Positions 36,545 to 37,141 of a DNA stretch of 64,000 nucleotides are shown here, piece after piece (the stretch's first letter is position 1; every line of letters starts with the position of its first letter). The position numbers and the translations under genes were made by a program. Source of the stretch: Pseudazoarcus pumilus (GTDB taxonomy: Bacteria > Pseudomonadota > Gammaproteobacteria > Burkholderiales > Rhodocyclaceae); the NCBI RefSeq assembly GCF_002872475.1, contig NZ_CP025682.1:2480001-2544000 (forward strand). Direction: 5' to 3'. The notes beneath the pieces were generated by a model. That model saw nothing but the letters and a program-made list of their open reading frames with translations, was not told the DNA's origin and did no database searches.

Positions 36545-37141
36545 TGGGGAAGTCCGCCGATAAGCCGGGTTCTGTCGAGGCGTGCCGACCATAGCCGGCA
36601 CGCCCGGGCAATCATTCCTCTGCGAGCCGCGTTGCCGCGACCCTGAAGCAGCCTACCCGGGAGCAGCGCGAGCCACGCCATCGCTCCCCTATTTGGCCTT
36701 GCCCCGGATGGGGTTTGCCGTGCCGGTCCTGTTGCCAGTCCCGCGGTGGTCTCTTACACGACGGAGCTTTCGCCCCGCCCGAGATCTCGCTCACGCTCCC
36801 GACCGGCTTGCGCCGGCCGGTCGCACTCGCGCGATCTCGCACCGTTTCACCCTTACCTGTGCCGTCAGGCGCAGCTTGCGCCGCGCCTGCCGCGGTCACT
36901 CCGGGCAAGCCCGGAGTGACCGCGGCTGATACATCGGACTTTCGCCCGATCGCACCACCCTCTTCGAGAGGGGGACTTTGCCGCCTTGCGGCGGCGAAGC
37001 CCGGACGGCCATCGGCGGTCTGCTCTCTGTTGCACTTTCCGTCGCCTCACGGCGCCCGGCCGTTAGCCGGCATCCTGCTCTGCGGGGCCCGGACTTTCCT
37101 CCACGCACCGCGAGGTGCGCAGCGACTGCCTGGCGAACTTC
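36545..37141 (-). ncRNA. rnpB: RNase P RNA, class A, with expanded P9 and P12 regions
   Basis: RNase P RNA is the catalytic RNA that matures tRNA 5' ends. On the minus strand the 5' end GAAGTTCGCCAGGCAGTCGC pairs with the 3' GGCGGACTTC to form P1. Between them are the universal blocks GGAGGAAAGTCCGGGC, CAACAGAGAGCAGACCGCCG, GGTAAGGGTGAAACGG, GGCAAGGCCAAATAGG, CCCGGGTAGGCTGCTT and ACAGAACCCGGCTTATCGG. The length is about 597 nt against 377 in E. coli. The excess is in two places: about 149 nt between GATGGCC and GGTAAGG, where E. coli has 16, and about 80 nt in the P12 region. P3 is shorter than in E. coli. Promoter and terminator are both visible. Precise ends are inferred. Confidence 0.96.

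Follow-up and report, generated by a model that had tools for sequence, protein, structure and literature searches.

The rnpB gene found in the window, i.e., the whole 64,000-nucleotide stretch of DNA analyzed here, probably encodes a functional RNase P RNA of class A, in which the specificity domain has undergone a lineage-specific expansion, with the added hairpins retained as peripheral struts. In the proposed arrangement, the tip of helix P12 would have become a multi-helix junction, built on a core module of one recurrent hairpin (hairpin 1) and a second hairpin that would form a three-way junction in most carriers, and the P12 domain would have grown to five hairpins in the window genome and in five other genomes. 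P13 would have gained two GNRA-capped hairpins as well. The hairpins would stay in the mature RNA and, as struts, could stabilize or orient the specificity domain.

The rnpB gene and its expanded P12

The gene occupies positions 36545-37141 on the minus strand (597 nt) and was identified by its match to the covariance model RF00010, which is covered in full (positions 1-367 of 367, untruncated) at 222.9 bits (E 5e-71; gathering score 100). The conserved core aligns with the model from end to end, bearing out the original prediction that the conserved segments are intact; the conserved RNase P RNA core segments GAGGAAAGUCCGGGC, ACAGAG, GGUAAGGGUGAAA, GGCAAACCCCA and ACAGAACCCGGCUUA were all found in this alignment. 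It is the single RF00010 match in the window genome (99.94% complete, one contig). In length it is the maximum both in the family sample (141 of 150 genomes with a match; runner-up 582 nt) and in the phylum sample (144 of 150; runner-up 502 nt), and it exceeds the 250-550 nt given for bacterial RNase P RNA in the covered part of one source (PMC7191817). Among the full-length matches in the family sample the window gene scores lowest, which may matter for annotation. Compared with class A RNase P RNA as modeled by RF00010, it shares the full-length match, the conserved blocks and an ordinary P9, but differs in P12 and P13, which are junctions bearing extra hairpins.

A promoter and a terminator had also been reported for the gene. 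A consensus scan recovered neither, although candidate elements can be read by eye on the minus strand: a TATAAT hexamer upstream of rnpB (37155-37150), and a hairpin rich in G+C that leads into a few Ts (36535-36508), a possible rnpB terminator. For the RNase P protein, RnpA, no oddity was found in the 11 genomes searched, all of which have one copy; in the window genome it is an open frame of 134 aa.

The insert lies between the blocks GATGGCC (37013-37007) and GGTAAGG (36857-36851), and the spacing of 149 nt originally counted between them (37006-36858, minus strand) is exact; in E. coli the same two blocks are 16 nt apart, as had also been noted. In the RF00010 alignment the insert opens within the helix that follows ACCGCC and precedes GGUAAGG, which we take to be P12 from the usual order of the helices in the specificity domain. 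These helices are given as P7/P10/P11/P12, P8/P9 and P13/P14 in a figure legend of PMC4919922. The expanded P12 segment between ACCGCC and GGUAAGG, delimited by the alignment and the spacing count, measures 156 nt (36858-37013, minus strand). P9, to which the insert had been assigned in the original prediction, is an ordinary GUGA-capped hairpin near 37055-37041 in the same alignment, and is ruled out as the site since the covariance model puts the insert into a helix further along. The covariance-model comparison suggested at the time thus returned a P9 of normal length, but the bases concerned are still an insert, located in P12.

In the minimum free energy (MFE) fold, the P12 domain (36861-37009, minus strand) is closed by a 6-bp stem, GCCGUC/GACGGC (37009-37004 with 36866-36861), which encloses five hairpins in a six-way junction; this pairing had been foreseen, though as an extension of P9 rather than P12. 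The fold has an energy of -124.5 kcal/mol, compared to -79.05 +/- 4.42 kcal/mol for shuffled sequences (z -10.28; 0 of 200 equally low). Hairpin 1 (36973-37002), the recurrent module, is placed by the fold, by a covariance model of the hairpin (R1) and by covariation, and consists in the window of a lower stem GGGCUU/AAGUCC, a C.A mismatch, an upper stem GCCGCC/GGCGGC and a GCAA loop. The other four, also on the minus strand, are hairpin 2 (36958-36972; CCCUCU/AGAGGG, loop CGA), hairpin 3 (36927-36957; 6 + 7 bp, GAAA loop), hairpin 4 (36889-36926; 17 uninterrupted bp, CUUG loop) and hairpin 5 (36867-36888; 9 bp, GCAA loop), so that three of the five end in GNRA loops. Each of the hairpins described earlier (36980-36995, 36958-36972, 36933-36950, 36889-36926 and 36867-36888) is present in this fold; the "perfect 18-bp stem" of hairpin 4 has 17 bp and a CUUG tetraloop, and reaches 18 only if the C and G of the loop are taken as a further pair. 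Read by eye, the internal features of the fold are one 1x1 internal loop and one single bulge.

Across 44 folded P12 segments, z ranges from -12.8 (window) to -0.5, and the weakest folds among the carriers of hairpin 1 (G191, z -0.5; G088, z -0.9) are no better than shuffles. No known Rfam family came near its gathering score inside the insert, the best being a miRNA model at E 0.025. Because P12 has five hairpins in other assemblies as well, an assembly error is unlikely.

A recurrent hairpin in P12

When the insert was searched against 395 genomes of the family, the best matches covered approximately its first 55 nt. Hairpin 1 has the approximate consensus GACUUyG...GNRA...CAAAGUC. All 19 loci listed besides the window's own lie in rnpB; 18 of these were extracted as P12, and the nineteenth (G020) was taken from another copy at the same place. 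For prevalence we used an even sample of the family only, comprising 150 genomes, of which 141 have an rnpB match; eight were not extracted, leaving the P12 of 133 genes. The median P12 length in these genes is 21 nt, with at least 50 nt in 26 of 133 and a maximum of 175 nt, compared to 156 nt in the window. Hairpin 1 is present in the P12 of 24 of the 133 genes and in 14 of 63 genera, and eight of these 14 carrier genera also contain non-carriers. The module, being patchy even inside genera, cannot be essential.

The five-hairpin form of P12 was found in the window genome, in four g81 genomes and in one g72 genome, and the six diverged sequences, folded separately, give five hairpins each. 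Two of the four g81 genomes have an additional tandem copy of the module, which is absorbed into the first hairpin in the folds of G131 and G242. A fifth g81 genome carries two module copies in a different arrangement, and a sixth has a P12 of 23 nt. Second copies of hairpin 1 within P12 occur at L043 (G030), L151 (G242), L152 (G131) and L161 (G197), suggesting that the domain may grow by duplication, whereas the g7 genome G142 has lost hairpin 1 and has apparently retained the next hairpin. The original prediction spoke of a domain grafted onto the RNA; in the sense of foreign this does not hold, as hairpin 1 is a P12 module of eight families and five further genomes share the five-hairpin P12. 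A long P12 without the module was observed in L257 (G143; 139 nt) and, outside the family, in L025 (G041; 107 nt); these are apparently independent expansions of one helix.

Outside the family, the R1 model had a match at E <= 0.05 in 41 of the 399 genomes of the order searched. Among the 30 R1 loci listed, 17 are in rnpB, every one of them in P12, and 13 are elsewhere; at E <= 0.0012, 17 of 19 matches are in rnpB. The 17 rnpB matches span eight families, the window's own and seven others. For the loci L290-L309, Rfam calls RNase P in 14 of 20. A second model of the hairpin (R2), searched against 369 genomes of the class, returned the window genome alone at E <= 0.005 (1 of 369). Both searches used strict filters with few candidates scored per genome, by which weak members are missed. 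Against 44 named loci, P12 of which was extracted from eight, R1 gave one weak match (E 0.027), outside the P12 of that locus. Among named sequences, the closest RsmH hits are from an Azoarcus MAG (80%) and a Rhodocyclaceae MAG (76%), and the host is accordingly a probable Rhodocyclaceae-type bacterium.

The pairing of hairpin 1 was assessed in a set of 45 sequences from eight families (A4; 44 distinct, 13 pairs). This set descends from A1, which leaves out identical P12 rows and one spurious row from another family (G041), through A3 (54 rows), in which three A1 rows were dropped as duplicates; for A4, nine of the 54 were dropped because of loop indels or register shifts, and the coordinates of one row were corrected. 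In A4, 87.4% of cells pair and changes on both sides are seen at eight of 13 pairs, neither value being reached by any of 500 shuffles, whereas the value for further pair types was reached by 12 of 500. When the 3' partners are slid by +2, 18 cells with both-side changes are counted vs 15 in the true register, though these fall on five pairs instead of eight and only 35.3% of cells are paired. Compensatory changes thus show that the pairing of hairpin 1 is kept.

Sequence is conserved as well, though unevenly. Among all 54 hairpin 1 sequences, 45 have the lower-stem motif AAAGUC unchanged, compared to 39 for the upper arm CGCC and 35 for the upper arm GGCG, which puts conservation of the lower stem only slightly above that of the upper. 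Other families contribute 14 sequences; AAAGUC is intact in 12 of these, whereas their upper 5' arm is of seven kinds. Ten of the 15 double-change cells are in the upper pairs and three in the lower pairs (columns 4-8 and 10), corresponding to 10 of 220 cells in the upper five pairs vs 3 of 264 in the lower six (p 0.025, for non-independent cells); two of the six lower-stem pairs are invariant. For hairpins 2-5, arms combined across species in the six five-hairpin genomes pair at 150 of 160, 120 of 144, 187 of 224 and 221 of 240 positions; four of the six genomes share one genus. The own arms of these hairpins pair at 39 of 39, 39 of 39, 48 of 48 and 46 of 48 positions, by construction, because they were taken from the folds, and the comparison as a whole is weak support.

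P13, the role of the hairpins and alternative explanations

The window gene also has an expanded P13 (36744-36844, minus strand), which folds into an outer stem and two GNRA-capped hairpins, P13.1 (36839-36780, GCAA) and P13.2 (36779-36760, GAAA), together a three-way junction (z -6.18). Expansions of P13 of 46-102 nt, the two-hairpin form included, are also seen in the rnpB of other family members. In the even family sample, with P13 length known for 128 of 133 genes, a P13 of at least 45 nt is found in 15 of 24 carriers of the P12 module vs 17 of 104 non-carriers (p 1.4e-5, ignoring kinship).

Kinship was taken into account with a tree built from the rnpB core, P12 and P13 excluded (146 rows, 42 carriers); 19 of the 42 carriers come from outside the even sample and were added via the insert search, so that the tree is enriched for carriers. 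Presence of the module requires 26 changes on this tree, at least eight of them forced by supported branches, compared to a mean of 36.6 in shuffles, none of 500 being as low. Over eight supported independent pairs, P13 follows the P12 module in 4.8, opposes it in 0.2 and is the same on both sides in 3.0 (median p 0.0625). The even sample by itself offers five such pairs, with 2.1 following vs 0.2 opposing (median p 0.5). The tendency of the P12 module to go with a two-hairpin P13 is therefore suggestive, but not significant when allowing for kinship. As 12 of the 42 carriers have a short P13, a contact between P12 and P13 is not obligatory.

The trend for P13 is nevertheless stronger on the independent pairs than that of every core-column trait tested. 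Among 131 column-letter traits on supported independent pairs, no core partner of the module emerged, the best trait following it in 3.3 and opposing it in 0.2. Core columns do associate with module presence when uncorrected (best p 2.7e-7), though kinship may be the cause; in the closest within-genus contrast of a carrier and a non-carrier, 12 core columns differ. New tertiary contacts had been proposed from the GNRA loops, and the one hint of them is that the P12 and P13 expansions tend to be gained and lost together. Class A RNA has a contact between L13 and P12. The likeliest action of the added hairpins would be to stiffen P12, packing against P13; the hairpins of P12 and P13 may perhaps pack together or bind a partner.

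The main rival to the strut reading is neutral accretion, in which P12 is merely a tolerant site where hairpins are gained by slippage or duplication and lost again, without function. The patchy presence of the module, with at least eight changes that supported branches in the core tree make unavoidable, favors this explanation, and the tandem copies of hairpin 1 in G030, G131, G242 and G197, the apparent retention of the next hairpin in G142 after loss of hairpin 1, and the long, module-free P12 of G143 and, outside the family, of G041 are in line with it. In contrast, the compensatory changes in hairpin 1 indicate that pairing is maintained, both-side changes are rarer in the lower than in the upper stem, within the limits of non-independent cells, and AAAGUC is retained in other families despite the variety of upper arms. 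We regard functionless growth as possible, though on balance doubtful. The conservation of AAAGUC hints that something may read the lower stem specifically, and a bolder reading than that of struts would have a partner or a receptor helix recognize it by sequence. Hairpin 1 would then be the bacterial equivalent of the P12 expansions that bind proteins in archaea and eukaryotes, a sequence-specific site that recruits a second partner (protein or RNA) or contacts the co-varying P13 hairpins, a proposal that we consider speculative and rather improbable.

Other explanations bear on the fate or the origin of the insert. It could be cut after transcription, with RNase III acting on the 17-bp stem of hairpin 4 and leaving a two-piece RNase P RNA, analogous to the intervening sequences of 23S rRNA, which are cleaved after transcription. 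The stem of hairpin 4 is uninterrupted and the longest of the domain, but its length is peculiar to the window genome (8-10 bp in the five other five-hairpin genomes), the closing stem of P12 would keep the pieces joined, and the covered portions of the literature searched yielded nothing on such cleavage, making this unlikely. We find it more improbable still that a mobile or dispersed palindromic element was inserted into rnpB. Such an element could account for the patchy distribution, the similar sequence across distant genera and the hairpin shape; among the family genomes, weaker matches to the insert's 3' half lie elsewhere, at E values down to 1.8e-5, and G636 has a similar palindrome outside rnpB, GACTTTGCCGCCCTAGGGCGGCAAAGTT (L312 around 1501; E 0.009). 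This palindrome is possibly a terminator. Against an element of this kind, all 30 carrier genomes searched have their hairpin 1 matches at E < 1e-3 exclusively in rnpB (150 first-look candidates scored per genome), giving no sign of a dispersed repeat; all 17 order-wide copies in rnpB sit in P12, the window genome outside rnpB gives nothing better than E 0.06, and the insert has no phage match. A dispersed repeat or phage origin is thus unsupported by the own genome, the 30 carriers and the phage search. In a plasmid collection only partial matches to the rnpB core were found, none spanning 80% of the gene.

Finally, hairpin 1 has a 5' strand, GGACUUU, with complementarity to the core segment GGAAAGUCC; this strand could in principle pair with the conserved AAAGUCC of P4 in the catalytic core, acting as a regulatory switch, for which the well-conserved lower stem might also speak. 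However, hairpin 1 is far more stable than the alternative duplex (-15.9 to -20.7 vs -5.4 to -8.4 kcal/mol in seven sequences), and an antisense switch with P4 is so unlikely energetically that we give it hardly any credence.

Relation to other expanded RNase P RNAs

Bacterial P12 has been described, in the covered portions of the literature, as variable and without universally conserved nucleotides. The P12 analyzed here stands in contrast to this description, as it carries a recurring module whose sequence is conserved and which is found in eight families of a single order. Class A RNase P RNA as such is familiar; a recurrent bacterial P12 hairpin module is apparently undescribed in the literature searched. 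No description of the hairpin 1 module was found there, in a search that did not extend to subscription journals or to the old RNase P database, and it is absent from the covered sections of PMC2858038, PMC4264200, PMC12974513, PMC8172020, PMC7191817, PMC4919922 and PMC2245857.

In archaea and eukaryotes, expansions of P12 (P12.1/P12.2 and ES5.1/ES5.2) provide protein-binding sites, according to section 13 of PMC12974513. The window gene resembles these in having extra helices at the tip of P12, a likeness of architecture, and differs in being bacterial and in a fold without a kink-turn-like internal loop. In type M RNAs a kink-turn binds L7Ae/Rpp38 (PMC4919922, in part); no kink-turn with a 3-nt bulge was seen by eye in the MFE fold of the P12 domain. 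Section 12 of PMC12974513 lists P5.1, P18.0 and P10.1 as expansions that arose later in bacteria, and none of P12. RNase P RNAs of CPR bacteria are similar to that of the window in combining large helix extensions with an otherwise recognizable RNA; the covered part of PMC8172020 reports, for example, an extended P15 and the loss of P12 in two genomes, and does not mention the P12 module.

Two further kinds of insertion are comparable in part. The palindromic elements of Rickettsia are palindromic DNA within functional genes, and are dispersed. They share with the module a palindrome inside a functional gene, but differ in this dispersal, as the module is confined to rnpB at E < 1e-3 in the 30 carriers. 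STRR insertions in rnpB, as described in the sources in part, are likewise lineage-specific extra sequence, but consist of a short tandem repeat array, of which Tandem Repeats Finder detected none in the window rnpB (0 rows).

Close relatives with and without the module constitute natural pairs of rnpB genes, in which growth of a ribozyme by neutral accretion can be set against the gain of useful additions. The same pairs bear on the question of an additional partner in some bacterial RNase P, such as the archaeal and eukaryal enzymes have.

A separate motif, approximately AGTGAAGGCTAACC-hairpin-GGTTATGCCGGAGCTAAA, was recognized by eye in the rnpB of two other families of the order (L290, L293, L298 and L304). 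It occupies two sites of the molecule, P13 in L290, L293 and L298, and a position just 5' of ACCGCC in L304.
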